Below, piece after piece: positions 209-9,798 of a stretch of 10,000 nt of DNA. Origin of the DNA: Acropora yongei. Taxonomy: Eukaryota; Cnidaria; Anthozoa; Scleractinia; Acroporidae. The stretch spans positions 602,252-612,251 of the forward strand of contig BLFN01000010.1 of assembly GCA_014634225.1 (NCBI GenBank). The letters are read 5' to 3'. The notes beneath the pieces were generated by a model. That model searched no databases. It worked only from the letters and a program-made list of their open reading frames with translations, and was not told where the DNA came from. Positions within the stretch are counted from its first letter, which is position 1, and each line of letters starts with the position of its first letter. A program made the translations under genes and the position numbers.

Positions 209-297
209 CGTGAAGCTAATACTAGTAAGGCGAAGCTTTGTAACCAAACAAATCATGACTGTCGGTGATGTGTGTGTGTGATTCTTATGCAAACTAG

Positions 298-457
298 CGT
301 ACAACGGAGACGTGGATAAACCCGCAGAAAATCATGTTTACATTAACCCCAAGTACAAGACAGTGATTGTTGCAGGATCCGCAGGCTCACGTGAAAGACT
401 TTCCAACTGGACCCGTGCGCCTGATTACATGTCGGCAAAATACATCTACGACTATGG
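298..457 (+). CDS. Purple acid phosphatase penultimate exon, alternative version A
   Basis: Internal exon of a purple acid phosphatase (ACP7-like) gene, read as two bases, then 52 codons, then two bases. It encodes part of the C-terminal 'iron/zinc purple acid phosphatase-like' domain. Visible landmarks are YNGDV at its start, YINPKYKTVIVAGSAGS in the middle and DYG at the end. The G-S/T-A-G strand corresponds to the ITGSAG region of human ACP7. An acceptor AG lies at 296-297 and a donor GTAGGT at 458. There is an N-glycosylation sequon (NWT) near residue 36. It is homologous to the exon at 1255-1408, with the same splice phases and only two codons more. The pyrimidine tract before the acceptor is weak and interrupted by purines, with a (TG)6 run at 269-280, so it may be a regulated exon. 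The first exons of the gene lie to the left, outside the window. Whether this copy is used or is a relic cannot be settled from sequence alone. Confidence 0.8.
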
Positions 458-651
458 GTAGGTTAGAGGGAGCAGCGGACAGAGCAGGGGTGGGGTGGGG
501 ATTTTTTTTGCTTCTTCATCTCACCTTGGGAAAAAAAGAACTTTGCCGAAGACAGCAAATTCTCGTTTTCAACATCAGTTTCTGGCGTATAATTGTTTTT
601 CGAGTAACTCAAATGGTAAATGCCCGTAATTAGATGCATGCTCAATTTTGA

Positions 652-920
652 TAAGTGTAGCGAAGTGTTCCGGTCGATTAACCCTTTCACTCCCGGAGGT
701 GCCAACAGGGCACTTATAGATTTTACTCTTTCTAACGCCAGAAGATTGTACTCGTCAATCGGGAGCCGCTGGGAGTGAAAGGGTTAAGGTGTAAACCACA
801 ATCTTTTACTTTATGGTTAGCGTTTCTGTTGGTTTCGTTTTAGGCTGGGTTTGGGGTTACTGTTTTGGTCTGTTTAAGGAGTAGAGTTAGACAGGGCGAC
901 GGAACACTTCGTGACACTTA
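652..920. mobile_element. Outer inverted-repeat element hosting a nested MITE
   Basis: Terminal inverted repeats of 21 bp at 652-672 and 900-920 match except for two central positions. The perfect core is CGAAGTGTTCCG on the left (661-672) and CGGAACACTTCG on the right (900-911). The repeat may reach a little further out, since CTCAA occurs near the left end and its complement TTGAG just outside the right end. No clear target duplication was found. There is no coding capacity, so this would be a non-autonomous element of about 163 bp before the inner MITE inserted. Confidence 0.5.
678..787. mobile_element. piggyBac-type MITE with TTAA target sites
   Basis: A short element bounded by TTAA on both sides (678-681 and 784-787). 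Its perfect 13-bp terminal inverted repeats are CCCTTTCACTCCC (682-694) and GGGAGTGAAAGGG (771-783). TTAA target sites plus termini beginning CCC are the hallmark of the piggyBac superfamily. It has no transposase, so it is a miniature non-autonomous copy. Similar CCCTTTCACTCCC elements are, to my knowledge, common in coral genomes; that is recollection, not a search result. It lies in the intron between the two alternative phosphatase exons. Confidence 0.75.
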
Positions 921-1254
921 TTGAGGTCTGCATGCGTTGAGTGCAATCCTGTATTTATTTCTCAAATTCTCGTGAGTCTGAATTTCTGAACTGTTCATTT
1001 GACTACGTTGTGAAAAAGCTTCTGGACGATTTAGGGTTTCATTGAATACTGTCGAAAAGCAACTAAAGAGAAACGCAATGCTTCCAGTTCCAGTCTTGGA
1101 TGGCGGCGACTTCTCAGTGCTAAATGTTCCTTCGAATACAGCCCGAGTCTTGAATGTATTTTGTCAGATATCACATCAGGTGCCGTGAATTTTATCAATG
1201 AAGAAATTAAATGTGAGGGATCACCTCTTTGTTTCCTTTCCTCGTCGATCCCAG

Positions 1255-1408
1255 CCTATGACGGTGAGGTGGAACATCAGAGCAAATATGCATACATAAA
1301 CCCTTCTTACATGACAACCATAGTGGCTGGATCAGCTGGTTCAAAGGAAGAGCTTTCCGACGGTAGAGCGCCTTCGAAGACACTGGCAATATACTTCAAA
1401 GACTACGG
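1255..1408 (+). CDS. Purple acid phosphatase penultimate exon, alternative version B
   Basis: Second version of the same purple acid phosphatase exon: two bases, 50 codons, two bases. It has YDGEV at the start, YINPSYMTTIVAGSAGS in the middle and KDYG at the end. The acceptor CAG at 1252-1254 follows a good pyrimidine tract, and the donor GTTAGT starts at 1409. Both acceptors fall after the first base of a codon and both donors after the second, so either exon splices to 1733 in frame. The two copies agree at about half of their residues. The core is strongly conserved (YINP, IVAGSAGS, E-LS, RAP, DYG), which suggests selection on both. The reading frame stays open some 90 bases upstream of the acceptor, but that stretch has no counterpart in version A and is probably intron. 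Confidence 0.85.
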
Positions 1409-1732
1409 GTTAGTATTCTCTCATTTCGACGTGGGTTACAGCATGCATGGCCGAAGTGATGAAAAAAGGCATTAGGTATTTAAAACAAGAAAAAAAAACA
1501 CGCAGATACATTGGGAATTCTGATAAAGGAATGTTTGTAACAAAACTCTGGGATTCTGGACACGACTTTGTATTCCCCTGTTTACACCCCCACTCCGAAA
1601 GTAAACTTTGAATCAGAGTTATGCTTAAGTGTCTTTCCTTGACCACTTGTCCCTTGGAGGGAGTTAGTAAATGGAAATTGAAGCAGATATGTAGATGTAA
1701 GAAAGTTCTGTTTTTTTTTGCTTCCTTTCCAG

Positions 1733-1934
1733 TTACGGTCATCTTCAAGCAATAAATAGAACTCACTTAAGCTGGGAATGGGAAAATACACACTACAACA
1801 GCAGTCGGTCAGTCTTCAAAGACAAGCTGTTGATTGTGCAAGAAAATCATGGCATGAGAGATGAACCTCCCCAGGTTTCACGGGAAGATGCCAACAACCA
1901 AACCAAGGATAAAGGCATTGACATTCCTTATTGA
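1733..1934 (+). CDS. Purple acid phosphatase terminal coding exon
   Basis: Last coding exon of the phosphatase gene. A single T completes a Gly codon (GG|T), then 66 codons follow to TGA at 1932-1934. The start YGHLQAINRTHLSWEWEN matches the closing strands of purple acid phosphatases (family pattern YG-x-L-x-x-x-N-x-T-H-L-x-W-x-W). It is followed by a segment resembling the family's D-x-x-x-IVQ-x-NHG and a polar tail ending DIPY. The sequons NRT and NSS are candidate glycosylation sites, as expected of a secreted or lysosomal enzyme. The acceptor CAG (1730-1732) follows a run of T and C. The dimetal catalytic residues lie in earlier exons outside the window, so activity cannot be judged here. 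No AATAAA is seen close downstream; a 290-bp foldback element begins 63 bp after the stop. Confidence 0.88.
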
Positions 1935-3312: not shown

Positions 3313-5361
3313 ATGGAAGAGAAAAAGATGTTTGGTATAAACGGCATGGAACAGAACGACACAGGCGCTCTCACACCAGAGCAACAGCAAAAACTAAACG
3401 AATTCAAGGTAAAGAAGTTTGTTTCAAAGGAAAAGAGATAAAGGAACGCGTTTTAGTAACCTTGTTTGTCTGTACGTCGTGTAGATCTCTACAAGATTTG
3501 CTAACGAAAGATATTTGAGAGAACATCCAGAAGTCTCGTGTCTGTTAAATGGGTTTTTAGGGTAAGTGTTTTTGAGTTAAATCTAAAATACACTTGTCTT
3601 ACTTTATCTATCACTCGACGAAGTCAGCGGAAAATATCGGCGTCTCTTTCATTCCGCTGTGACCATTTCGTTCTTCTTCACATCTCGAAGATGAATGAGC
3701 TTGTTTTTGTGTGTACTTGTTGTGGTAAACTTCTGAAAATAGAGGTCATATTTACTTTCTCTAAATCCTAGGTTATCATACGTTATTTTAAAAATCTCTT
3801 GACGTTTATCTGATGATCCGGTAACCATTGTAACATCGAAGAGACATTTATGCGGCTTTGTGTTCCTTCATAAACATTTGTCTCTCAGAATTCTAGTGAC
3901 ATTTCTTGATTCTTTTTGCAATTGCTTCTTGCTGTTGTCACCTCTCTTCCACCCACAATCAACAACAATAAAGTTTTTGACATTTCCTTGCAATTAAAAA
4001 TGTTTGGAATCATTGCATATCACATCTATTGTATACTGTACACTTACATTAATTTTTCTTTATCAACTCTTATATTACAAGGGCCTTGGAGAGGGAGGGG
4101 CTGGGAGCTGTAGTGCCTCCATTTTTTTCATGCCTATGGTTTGAATCTGGGGGTTGAATACTTAATTCACGAACTAACCTTGATTGGATTGTACTTAACA
4201 GCATTAATATAGCATTAATTTAATCCTGTTCTCTCCCCTCCCTCTCAACTTTTGTGCCATCCATTGGATTAATCATTGTATTACTGTAACAATGTTGGTA
4301 ATATGTTTCATTAGAGTAAAATAGTTGTTATTGTTGTAGAGAGGGAATTGTTTTTTTGATCATTGAATTTATTCTTGATGAATGTGTTTTTTCTATTGTC
4401 AGGAGTATTTTGCTAGAAAGACCAGAAAATGTGAGGGAATTTGCATCCAGTGAGTTCTTGAACAAATTATATAGTTTCTTGTGCTTCAGTAAAATTCATA
4501 CCTCTGCAAGTGAATGCACGGGCTTGCAAGACTAAACAGTTAAACTTGACTTGCACCTGAATTCATGCAATAAATTTGATTGATAAACAGAAGAGTTATG
4601 GGATCACCTGCATTACAGATGCAAAATGTTTAACTGCTAGGTTAGAGAATATAAACAGAATAACTGCCAGGCCATCCTCCATACTGTAATTGTAAAAATT
4701 AAGTTAAAGTTGCAAGGTCATTTACAACAGTTGGGCCATAGTCTCCACTATGTCTACTAGCATAATGATATACCGGTATTTATGTTGTAGGAGAAATTGG
4801 ATTTCAGGCTACAATGATTTCAACCAAGTCTGAGTTATATTATTCTTTATTGCCAAACCCTAAGAATAATTTATTAAAGTTTAGAAACAGGAAATCAAGA
4901 ATCTATTAACTAGGTTTAATAATTATTATTTATTTCAACCTTAATTTCACTCTAACCTACAACTGATACTTTCATCTACTTTTTTTGTAATAACTATCAT
5001 TATAAAAATATAAAAGTTCAATTAACTATTGTTTCAGTGATAGATGTATTATGAAATTTGTGAAACAAACTGTTAAGTGGAACTTTATTTAATGTGTCAG
5101 TAGTTTAATGTGTCCTTGTATTACTTTTAGAAATGAGACATTTTGATGATTTAACACCTAAAAAAAACATTATTATTATTTTTGAAAATAGCCTTGCCTT
5201 GACCAAATAATGAAATAAGGAAAACTTGTTGATTTTTTAAATTAAATTTTAATTTTGTTGGTTTTTTTACAGAATATTTTTCTGATCCTGAGCTTCGAAG
5301 AAAAGTGGAATTACAAGTTACAGAATTGAATAACAGGATAAAACGTACCAACAAACCATAG
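3313..5361 (+). CDS. RIIAD1: RIIa domain-containing protein 1 (RIIAD1), complete
   Basis: Small protein with an RIIa (PKA regulatory-subunit type dimerisation/docking) fold, associated in animals with cilia and sperm flagella. There are four coding exons: 3313-3408, 3485-3561, 4403-4449 and 5273-5361, all with GT-AG borders (donors gtaaag, gtaagt, gtgagt). They join to 102 residues; the human protein has 92. The N-terminal ~25 residues are polar. Residues 21-32 (TPEQQQKLNEFK) lead into the conserved block TRFANERYLREHPEV (35-49), which matches human TRIANEKYLRTHKEV. LLNGFLGSILLERPENVREF (52-71) and YFSDPEL (75-81) follow. The start is the first in-frame ATG after an in-frame TAG at 3250-3252. 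Met6 and Met12 are possible later starts. Exon 1 and exon 2 are separated by only 76 bp, while introns 2 and 3 are about 0.8 kb. Nothing is broken. The family match is strong; the ciliary role is taken from homologues. Confidence 0.92.
3562..4402 (+). other. RIIAD1 intron 2
   Basis: An 841-bp intron with donor GTAAGT and acceptor TTGTCAG. It is AT-rich and shows no coding exon, transposon ends or RNA gene that I can recognise. It has several short open frames on the + strand that lack any protein-like pattern. Confidence 0.75.
4450..5272 (+). other. RIIAD1 intron 3
   Basis: An 823-bp AT-rich intron with donor GTGAGT and a T-rich acceptor TTTTTTTACAG. It holds runs such as aataattattattta (4919-4933) and no recognisable element. 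Confidence 0.75.
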
Positions 5362-6261: not shown

Positions 6262-7153
6262 ATGTTGGAAAACGCGTCTGATTTCTTGGAGTTATTCAAA
6301 AGCTTTCCTGTTTCTATATCAGTTCTGCTTGTAGTGCCAATAGCTCTGTTGAGTGGACATGGTTCTCCTGTAATGGCTGCGCATGAATTTCCAGTGTTTA
6401 GAATGCAACAGTTTGATCTGCAACAAACTCTAAAAGGTAAACTATCCTTAATCAAAATTTTTTGAGCAAAGAGGCTGCGATCAATGGTTGTAAGGAGTGG
6501 TAGCTAATAATTTTGTTATACTCGAATGACACTGAAACGATTATAAAGTATTTTGTAACTAATCAGAATTATCACAAAACGCAGCGGTAGGAGCAACCAT
6601 CTCGCGTATTGATGCAGGATACAGCGAGCGTTAAAACATAAACACAGAGAAAATAAAAGGAAAAGCAAGGTTGATAGAGATGCCTCGAGTGGCTCTTGCG
6701 TAACGCACGAAAACGTAAAATAGCCAACTAGTCACAGGGGACACCTCACACGCACACCTTAACACCTTGGCAGTTACCCTTAACACAGCGTATATTCTTT
6801 TGTGAAATTAACAAAACGTTACAAAACACCTTTGTTTTTCGAATGAGTTCTGGTTTATACAAAGTCCATGTATTTCTTTAAAAAACCCCACCCCCATTTG
6901 TAGATGTGTGAAAACCTATTTTTCCTCTTGTAATTCTTAGCCCCTTCCGACCAAGGGTGGCAGAAATTCTACCTCCATTTTTGAGACGTCTTTTAAAAGT
7001 CAGGCAACATTCCAGTAGTTGACATTGAGTTTTGTTAACACCATCGAAAAAAAATCTGCATAGTTCAATCTTATTTTGTTTGTAGATCCAAATGTCAGAG
7101 TGCTTACCTTTTGAGGTGTATGGTCATATTATTCCAGAATCTTTTCATGTCAA

Positions 7154-7184
<31 letters not shown>

Positions 7185-9798
7185 ACATTCTAACAATAAA
7201 AAGTGGTGCCCTGCTAGCAGAGGTCTCTTTTGTCTTCCCACACAGTAGCTGACATACATATAAGAACACAAGAATGTTATGGATGTGTATTTCCATAACT
7301 TGCCGAACACAAGTTAACCATGAACCCAGAGTAATTGTTGGTTCATGGTTAGCTTGTTGTTAATTAGTAAGTTGGCATGCGTATTATTTTATCTTGTGAC
7401 AGGCTCTCGTAGTTCATTGGTTAATATGGAGGCACGCCCTTTGACAGCTGACATGCTGACACGACGCTGTGTGGTGACCAGATTATCAGATCTTACCATT
7501 GAGAGATTCAAAGAAGCAATTCAAACATTGGGAGCAGGTGCTATGTTGATACTGCTCCCCAAAAATACATCTCTCACTTCTCTGGAACAAATGCAGGTAA
7601 TATACCAGTGAGGGCCTTCCAGGGGTCTTAGGGAACAAGTGAACATGACCATTTACTTTTAGGGAACAAGAGATAAATTATCTTAAAATAACTTTTAGGG
7701 AACATGGGAACTGTTGAGTTGTAATCGGGAACAAGGGAACATTGATTTCCTGACCACTTGAAAAACTTTTTTAATGTGTAAGAGGGAAAAAAGCCTTTCC
7801 GGCAACAAAATATTGGCAAAGTATTACAATTTCTCTCATTTTACGGTCATCAAGGAGGAGAAAGAGGTGTTTTGCCAAGGAGTATCTGTATTATGACTAA
7901 CGGGGTAAAAGCTATGAAAGTAACTAACCATGAAAAAATAAAGTATGAAAGGCATTGTAGGGAACAGTGAGGAATATTTTTGGTGATCAAGAGAGCATGG
8001 AGTAGAATTTCTGGGAACAGGGGAACACAGTAAAAGTGAATTTCCGTCAGGGAACACCTTGATTTATTTTTAAGGAACAAGGGAACAACTGTAAATTGTT
8101 TTAGGGAACATGCACTCCCCCCTCCCCCTGGGAGGCCCTCACCAGTTTGCAGCTGCGTGCTCTACTGAGCAAACCAAGTAAAAACAATTCACCCTTTTGA
8201 GGGTATGATGTTAGGGGGAGAGTTTTTACTTTTGAGCAAAGTATTTTTCTTTTCTGTCAGGAGTGGCAACAACTGGAAAGGGATCTGTTGACTTTGGAGG
8301 TGCCAGTAGCTGTGTATTTTGCATATGAAGACAAGGAGCTGGCTGAGATTTATGAAGATATTAAAACAGCGATCAATACTGATCAGGCTGGTTCTGCATT
8401 TGAAGGTACATAATGTACAAATGACTGTGTAATTATTACTGTTTGTGAAATTATTATTAATACATAATAATCATTTCTCAGAAGATTAATGTGTAAATTC
8501 AAAGATTTAAGAATTTGTCTAAGTTGGTACATACTATTAGTTTTGATTCCTTTTATCTACAGTGTATGTTATTTCTTTTACATTAACAGTATGTATTGAA
8601 TAAAAATTGATGCATTGAATTCTTGACCATGAATTTCTTCAATATTATTACTATTCTTGTTATTGAAAAATACTCGGAAAAGTGGAAATTGTTAATGATA
8701 TCTTACAAGTTTCCTGTGCTGTACAGATTGTATTTTATTTCTAATACAATAACAACATTCTCAAAACTATTATTACATTTAAATTATTTTGACATTTTAT
8801 TATAAGCATTGCTTGGGGTGGCATCCACAAGTGGCCATCAGATGGTTGTAAATGTAGGTGAAGCCAAGGAGATTAAAGACATAACTATTACAAGTTTACA
8901 GGTACTGGAATTCACTTTGTAATGACTTTTTAAGCAGTCAGAATTTACCCTTCCGTTTTTGTCTAGCTCCTGGTCTGTTGCCTGTTTATAACTTAGTTCT
9001 TGTGTTGTCTAAATCATTTATGATGGTAAAAATGTGGTACTGTCCTTCAAAGTTCCCTTTTGGTCTTTGTATTCTAAGTTATTTAAGTGTTTCATAAAGG
9101 CTGCATGATTAGTACCCCAGTACTTTTAACACTACTGGGACCCTGCTCATGGAGTCCCTGCCCATGGAGTGAGAATACCTTGCATCTGAGCAGTTTTTCT
9201 TTCTCTGGGTCTACAAATATGCAACCAACCCACAGCCACGCTTGCTGAGAATCAGAACTTTTTCATCAAATGACAACTGATCAGAGATCATGTTCTGCCT
9301 AAACCTACTTGAAAAAAACGTCATGAATTTCTTGACAATTTTCCCTGAGCGAATGCCAGGGCTTTCTTTGGCTGAGTCAAAATGGGACTTTAGCATGCAA
9401 TGTTTTTTAGTCACGAATGGACATAGGGAGTAAACATCTTGCATGCCGTTCTTACTCTGATTCCTGTCAAGCTTATGACTGAGCTTGTGACTCCAATTTT
9501 CAAATAAGTTGTTATCCAGTGTAATCAAACTTATGAATCCGATTACAACCCCATCTCTGTTGCTCTGTAAATAAACAAGTAAATCATGTACAAATGAACA
9601 TTCTGTGGGCTCATAAAATGTCAACTTGTGCTGTCACAACTGCTTAACCCCCATTCCCTCACAATAACAGTTTGATTGTTGATTAGTTTATACATCTTTT
9701 TTTTATTATCACAGGGCAGATTAGCAGGCATGGGAGTTGATGAACAACTGCCCACCATTGGTGTTGTTACTCATTATGATACTTTTGGCATAGCACCA
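6262..9798 (+). CDS. NCLN: Nicalin (BOS complex subunit), 5' part, first five coding exons
   Basis: Nicalin is an ER membrane protein related to nicastrin and M28 aminopeptidases. With NOMO and TMEM147 it forms the BOS complex of the multipass translocon. Coding exons are 6262-6436, 7403-7596, 8261-8405, 8807-8901 and 9715-9798. All have GT-AG borders and joining phases, and together give the first 231 residues; the human protein is about 560, so the rest lies to the right. The start MLENASDFLE aligns with human MLEEAGEVLE. Residues ~15-31 form the hydrophobic signal segment. AAHEFPVFRMQQFDLQ (39-54) is almost identical to human AAHEFTVYRMQQYDLQ. NMEARPLTADMLTRRCV (66-82), VPVAVYFAYEDKEL (137-150) and GRLAGMGVDEQLPTIGVVTHYD (204-225) also follow the family. 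His223 and Asp225 correspond to the HxD of the peptidase fold, although nicalin is thought to be inactive. A sequon NTS lies near residue 114. A transposon sits in intron 2. No frameshift or stop is seen. Confidence 0.95.
7151..7186 (+). repeat. CAAAA/CAAAAA simple repeat
   Basis: About seven consecutive C-A(4-6) units inside nicalin intron 1. It is low-complexity sequence that could be a former poly-A tail or slippage product; no matching retroelement body is visible beside it. Confidence 0.65.
7316..7350. repeat. 11-bp inverted repeat (hairpin) in nicalin intron 1
   Basis: Arms aaccatgaacc (7316-7326) and ggttcatggtt (7340-7350) are perfect complements around a 13-base loop, and the match extends imperfectly outward (gtt on the left against agc on the right). 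It lies 52 bp before exon 2, so it could present a stem near the branch-point region. Confidence 0.5.
7604..8146. mobile_element. 531-bp non-autonomous DNA transposon in nicalin intron 2, with 6-bp target duplication
   Basis: The element occupies 7610-8140 and is flanked by the direct repeat ACCAGT (7604-7609 and 8141-8146). Its 16-bp terminal inverted repeats, GAGGGCCTTCCAGGGG on the left and the complement of GAGGGCCTCCCAGGGG on the right, differ at one base. The interior carries roughly a dozen copies of GGGAACA or GGGAACAAG, all in the same orientation and denser toward both ends. This resembles the clustered transposase-binding motifs of some DNA transposons. There is no transposase; the minus-strand open frames here are just translations of this repeat. 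It starts 13 bp after the exon 2 donor. I cannot assign a superfamily with confidence. Confidence 0.8.
8902..9714 (+). other. Nicalin intron 4, with an unrecognised minus-strand open frame
   Basis: An 813-bp intron from GTACTG to TTATCACAG. A hairpin, CCCAGTA (9116-9122) with TACTGGG (9133-9139), is followed by a repeated catggagt motif (9149-9156 and 9163-9170). On the minus strand an open frame of 137 codons (9624-9211) has a balanced amino-acid composition, including CPFVTKKHCMLKSH with Cys and His pairs, but I recognise no family. It could be a transposon relic or chance. No terminal repeats were found around it. Confidence 0.4.

Follow-up and report, generated by a model that had tools for sequence, protein, structure and literature searches.

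A tandem pair of homologous exons, very probably used in a mutually exclusive manner, precedes the last exon of a coral purple acid phosphatase gene

The window, i.e., the whole stretch of 10,000 nucleotides of Acropora yongei DNA that was analyzed, is located on a 5.8-Mb contig of a 405-Mb genome. It holds the following features (positions are those of the window):

268-297, plus strand: acceptor region of exon A, with a TG repeat, 11 pyrimidines in 20 positions, and TAG.
298-457, plus strand: exon A of the phosphatase gene, 160 nt, phase 1 in and phase 2 out, with an N-W-T sequon and the donor GTAGGT.
458-1254, plus strand: intron between A and B, 797 bp, with nested inverted repeats.
651-672/900-921 and 678-699/766-787: arms of the inverted repeats in the A-B intron, one pair nested in the other.
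1255-1408, plus strand: exon B, the alternative to A, 154 nt, with the same phases as A and the donor GTTAGT.
1409-1732, plus strand: intron between B and C, 324 bp, ending in a pyrimidine-rich tract (18/20).
1733-1934, plus strand: last coding exon C, common to A and B, 202 nt, with a TGA stop.
1998-2287: MITE-like stretch whose terminal inverted repeats (GACCGTATTCATAAATG) are perfect over 17 bp, shortly 3' of the phosphatase stop codon.
3313-5361, plus strand: gene of an RIIa-domain protein (RIIAD1-like), four exons, directly downstream of the phosphatase.
6262-9798, plus strand: first five exons of a nicalin-like gene that runs off the window.

The MITE-like stretch may lie in the 3' UTR of the phosphatase gene, since the sole AATAAA or ATTAAA between positions 1935 and 3400 is found at 2656. 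An A. cervicornis gene model (P0014) appears to fuse the phosphatase last exon with the next gene, that of the RIIa-domain protein, which gives the locus some value for annotation. The gene at 6262-9798 was assigned from the way it reads, presumably like nicalin. An intron of this downstream gene contains 12 copies of GGGAAC in 521 bp (7600-8120), and 13 copies are present on the plus strand of the whole window.

The exons upstream of A fall outside the window. In the genome, those for residues 1-155 were located upstream on the same strand at about contig positions 591,895-593,957, and A, B, and C follow in contig order at about 602,550, 603,505, and 603,985; the intervening sequence is partly N in the span that holds the exons for about residues 156-318. 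The Pfam domain PF14008 (Metallophos_C) was recognized in A joined to C with 45.5 bits and in B joined to C with 44.4 bits (gathering cut-off 23). The relative P0005 carries, in order and all above the cut-off, PF16656, PF00149, and PF14008, that is, the purple acid phosphatase N domain, the metallophosphatase domain, and again PF14008. Where the source names of the coral relatives are functional, they read acid phosphatase type 7 or type 7-like, or purple acid phosphatase in the case of P0010; the remaining coral relatives are "hypothetical" or carry no functional name. The core residues of GDxG, GDxxY, GNHE, HK, and GHxH, which we take to be the metal-ligand motifs of purple acid phosphatase, are invariant in 11 aligned relatives, and the window lies downstream of them. 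In the same 11-protein alignment, the stretch encoded by A or B directly follows GHAHNYQR, the last metal-binding motif, and neither exon holds such a motif. The closest solved structures, both by sequence profile and by Foldseek, are wheat PAPhy b2 (6giz) and kidney bean PAP (1kbp), which, unlike the coral phosphatase, are plant enzymes. By sequence, the window gene is a coral purple acid phosphatase of the acid phosphatase type 7-like kind.

A preliminary description of this DNA had proposed that A and B are mutually exclusive exons. Its coordinates, lengths, AG/GT borders, and phases for A, B, and C were all reproduced on recomputation, and so was its frame logic: A joined to C and B joined to C are both open to one and the same TGA, while A joined to B and the skipping of both exons lead to early stops. 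Translation of the joined exons A and B gives DYG-Leu-stop, and this stop precedes the B/C junction by 147 nt. A stop more than 50-55 nt before a junction exposes an mRNA to nonsense-mediated decay (NMD), and the A+B mRNA would therefore be exposed to it. When both exons are skipped, seven residues are followed by TAA. The residue to the left of the 5' junction of A and B is the Thr of LYPT, followed by Tyr, in six of the seven relatives aligned and Ala in P0007, and the residue of the split codon at this junction is most likely Thr.

The homology of the two exons is clear. The alignment score of the A and B peptides is 117, compared with a mean of -19 (SD 9.8, maximum 31) in 2000 shuffles (z = 13.9), and no stop-free piece of at least 20 residues in the window scores above 38 against either peptide except the exons' own frames. 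At the DNA level, 93 of 150 positions are identical, with 33, 37, and 23 identities in 50 first, second, and third codon positions, respectively, and dN and dS amount to 0.42 and 1.12 (NG86). These codon-position identities and substitution values suggest that the duplication is old and that both copies are constrained at the amino-acid level.

Human mutually exclusive exon clusters consist, like the coral A and B, of neighboring, similar exons of similar length and the same frame (PMC5740500). By the definition used there, A and B are neighboring internal exons that are alike in length, sequence, and frame; joint inclusion is tolerated where a premature stop results, and joining A to B does give a frame shift and a premature stop, as far as the frame part of the definition goes. 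Exons with lengths not divisible by three occur in 377 (60%) of the human clusters. Unlike the human clusters, which were validated by splice-junction reads, the coral pair is known from sequence, frames, and the proteins of relatives.

The preliminary description had also suggested looking for the same pair in other cnidarian ACP7-like genes, and both exon types were indeed found across coral genera. Joining of A to the last exon is seen in two contigs (P0005 and P0018) and in a gene model (P0006), while B joined to the last exon is seen in gene models on large contigs only (P0015, P0003, and P0008). In the Acropora-like P0005, an uninterrupted ORF of 436 residues on a 1541-bp lgn contig, A runs directly into the last exon. 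Since A and C stand 1275 bp apart in the window, this contig is spliced. P0018, a 90-residue fragment on a 1511-bp lgn contig, starts inside A and likewise joins A to the last exon, as does the Porites gene model P0006. In the A. digitifera gene model P0015 (isoform X2, 209 residues), B is joined to the last exon. The last exons of P0005 (A-type) and P0015 (B-type) are identical in 63 of 65 residues, while their upstream parts are identical in only 86 of 93. The B-type Orbicella gene model P0003 (isoform X2) has a last exon identical to that of P0018 (58/58). In Pocillopora, P0008 (B-type, P. verrucosa isoform X2) and P0010 (A-type, P. damicornis) share 320 of 328 upstream residues but only 31 of 52 residues of the alternative exon. 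In each of these three A/B comparisons, the two proteins come from different sources, and no named species is represented by both forms; at the 90% clustering of the protein database, two such isoforms of a single gene would as a rule fall into the same cluster.

Four A-type proteins include the upstream part. P0005 and P0006 run into C, while P0009, on a 1235-bp lgn contig, and P0010, a gene model, end exactly at DYG, that is, at the A donor. These two ends would be compatible with A being an alternative terminal exon, in which the unspliced donor reads GGG TAG and yields a short protein ending in DYG next to a long B-C form, and all six A-type ORFs that do not run into the last exon end in this way. 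However, any GTAA, GTAG, or GTGA donor that follows a phase-2 exon necessarily contributes an in-frame stop, and ORFs read from unspliced or genomic sequence should therefore end at DYG anyway. In addition, a short A form would lack the second half of PF14008, and P0005, P0006, and P0018 do join A to C. We thus regard a terminal exon A as quite unlikely.

Taken together, the A-to-C and B-to-C proteins of relatives and the frame logic support mutual exclusion, and A and B are very probably mutually exclusive internal exons, arranged in tandem in front of the last exon that both use in this coral purple acid phosphatase gene. Each mRNA would take either A or B right after GHAHNYQR and then the common exon C. 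From the relatives, we infer that the junctions 457 to 1733 and 1408 to 1733 are both used in A. yongei. Exclusivity of the product would be enforced at least partly by the frame, since mRNAs containing A and B stop early and are expected to be degraded, and since skipping both exons truncates the protein.

The genome contains at least 13 scored matches to P0005, all in one cluster. A tandem paralogue is located at about 575,284-587,955 of the contig; it ends about 4 kb before the first exon of the window gene and whose exons are 83-100% identical to the A. muricata protein P0002. As tandem phosphatase copies do exist at the locus, A might be thought to be the remnant of a separate copy without a last exon, leaving B as the only functional version. 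This was the outcome that the preliminary description had named as speaking against its own proposal, and it fails, because in P0005 and P0018 A is followed directly by a last exon of the type to which B is joined in P0015 and P0003. The paralogue, moreover, has its own last exon and one B-like exon. The A peptide scored 28 in the 1033 bp on the 5' side of this B-like exon and 23 in the 385 bp on its 3' side, compared with a background of 25 and 22 in the introns of the window gene, 39 in a mostly-N stretch before A, and up to 38 elsewhere in the window; no A-like exon was thus detectable above background in either flank. Likewise, no match to a last-exon remnant above background was present in the 797 bp between A and B, and A is better conserved across genera than B. 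That A is such a remnant is therefore extremely improbable. Since A is common to Porites and Pocillopora, the paralogue has most likely lost its exon A.

The age of the pair was assessed with two trees. An exon tree was built from 37 exon peptides, with P0007, P0012, P0050, and P0052 set apart as the outgroup and P0018, P0047, P0051, and P0053 left out for incomplete exons; it has few columns, and many of its forks are unresolved. In this tree, all nine complete A peptides, among them those of the window, P0005, Porites, and Pocillopora, form one clade (99/96), and the B peptides form one group with weak support (68/79). In a tree of the upstream parts of 11 proteins, by contrast, A and B types interleave by genus, with the Pocillopora A and B proteins together (100/100). 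Forcing the four A types together on the upstream part costs 136 log-likelihood units and is rejected (p-AU = 1.09e-62). Since the A clade spans genera while the upstream parts group by genus, the pair, by these trees, already existed when Acropora, Porites, and Pocillopora diverged. Stony corals fall into two main lineages, one with Acropora and Porites and the other with Pocillopora and Orbicella.

The two exons did not change at the same pace. Between the window and Pocillopora, 42 of 53 residues are identical in A but only 30 of 51 in B, and the B exons of A. digitifera and Pocillopora share 33 of 51; by this comparison, A is more conserved across genera than B. The window A is identical to the A part of P0005 in 52 of 53 residues, whereas its last exon, although of the same kind as the tails of P0005 and P0015, is identical to that of P0005 in only 54 of 65 and carries a W-to-L change at a position kept in seven aligned relatives. 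This divergence of C in excess of that of A could mean that the common end of this copy is now under weaker constraint. We therefore considered a decay of B or of the whole window copy, with an arrangement that is real in corals and one isoform that is being lost in this species. The window B matches the B exon of P0015 in 42 of 51 residues, so that B and C differ from P0015 at 9/51 and 12/65 positions, compared with 1/53 between A and P0005, and some of the changes affect sites kept in most relatives (LAKYIEDYG to LAIYFKDYG, and D-x-LW to DKLL). On the other hand, the frames and splice-site dinucleotides of all three exons are intact, and C is needed by the A isoform as well. The same B peptide (P0023, P0024) and a near-identical C (65/66; P0016, the protein of an ena contig) occur on other public contigs, possibly of the same species, and fast adaptive change would look alike. 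Decay in this species is thus rather unlikely, though less so than a terminal exon A.

Turning to the splice sites of the A/B pair, the acceptor of A has the poorest pyrimidine tract of the 10 acceptors measured in the window, and that of B has 17 pyrimidines in 20 positions and CAG. The predicted U1 pairing energies of the B and A donors are -9.4 and -10.0, respectively, and the B donor is stronger than seven of eight neighboring donors. Since its pairing is close in strength to that of A and stronger than that of these neighbors, we do not call the B donor weak, and a weak B donor as a regulatory key is not claimed. Among ORFs not reaching the last exon, a pyrimidine at donor position +3 (if a GT donor is used) was read from the read-through peptides in 15 of 19 B-type and none of six A-type cases (Fisher p = 0.0012), where the rows are related species and non-independent and P0023, P0024, and P0051 repeat the window's own B. 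The B-type donors of many corals (P0028-P0053; positions 1409-1414 in the window) appear to keep this +3 pyrimidine as GTTR or GTCN. In our judgement, the nested inverted repeats between A and B resemble a mobile element. Hairpins formed by them are unlikely to be a conserved splicing switch, as the translated intron of P0028 lacks, as judged by eye, about 320 bases of the window, including the hairpin part.

The A and B forms of the enzyme would have the same catalytic core but different C-terminal loops, with the N-W-T site always present in the A form. The preliminary description had pointed out that NWT is present only in A and could underlie different glycosylation. In counts that exclude P0007, P0012, P0050, P0052, P0047, and P0013, NWT was indeed found in all nine A-type relatives and in none of 25 B-type exons. 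However, 14 of the 25 B-type exons contain NQT or NHT elsewhere in the exon, and six of the nine A-type exons have a second sequon. Glycosylation is accordingly not simply restricted to A in other corals.

It had further been proposed that the exon covers strands near the active-site face, which our data support weakly. Two AlphaFold models were too uncertain (mean pLDDT of 63 and 64, and below 50 across much of the exon), and no distances were drawn from them. A very weak alignment places the loop IVAGSAGS.E[KR] opposite VGDGGNREK of wheat PAPhy (a phmmer stretch of -3.2 bits and the shared pattern G..G.[RK]E[KR]), while the profile alignment to the solved structure leaves the Lys410 stretch unaligned. 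The wheat K410A variant keeps 13% of its phytase activity, and its activity toward p-nitrophenyl phosphate is not significantly reduced (PMC9073318). At the position aligned with Lys410, the A-type relatives (n = 9) have K in seven and R in two cases, and the B-type relatives (n = 25) have K in 16, R in three, and E in six; three of these six are other contigs with the B peptide of the window itself. As K and R dominate in both types, A and B are alike at this place in most corals, and the match between wheat Lys410 and an exon residue is a lead only. It is a long shot that the pair represents two interchangeable substrate-face modules, retained from a time before Acropora, Porites, and Pocillopora diverged, through which splicing could switch substrates or compartments, e.g., the host lysosome and the algal symbiosome. 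In this reading, the A module would be nearly fixed, with a basic residue at the Lys410 position and an invariant N-W-T, and the B module, which has Glu there in the window species, would evolve more freely.

Comparable arrangements are known from other genes. The vertebrate U2AF1 exons Ab and 3 are likewise a tandem duplicated pair, and transcripts with both or neither of them carry stops and are lowered by NMD (PMC5224494); unlike the coral phosphatase, U2AF1 is an unrelated splicing-factor gene with studied regulation. In GNAO (exons 7.1-8.1 and 7.2-8.2) and in cephalochordate preGNAI/Q/S, local exon duplication has led to mutually exclusive versions, which in GNAO are the final exon pair (PMC5896119). 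GNAO, however, encodes a G protein alpha subunit and has two exons duplicated together, unlike the single-exon pair in corals. In corals, mutually exclusive events were counted among A. digitifera transcripts (PMC6335708), and an A. tenuis gene annotated "Acid phosphatase type 7" stands in a table row of gland/secretory cells (PMC8270879).

Among the matches listed on mutually exclusive exons (cnidaria, corals, acid phosphatase), no title or abstract start describes the coral phosphatase pair, and likewise none of the titles and abstract starts among the matches listed mentions a duplicated C-terminal exon in purple acid phosphatases. As far as these titles and abstract starts show, the coral A/B pair is a new, though ancient, case of a well-known arrangement. 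It would illustrate cleanly, in an animal outside Bilateria, how the frame can enforce the choice within a long-established pair of duplicated exons. Purple acid phosphatases are typically secreted or lysosomal, and phosphorus supply is thought to matter in the symbiosis between corals and algae. Isoforms of differing behavior, should they exist, could thus be examined in a setting where this matters.
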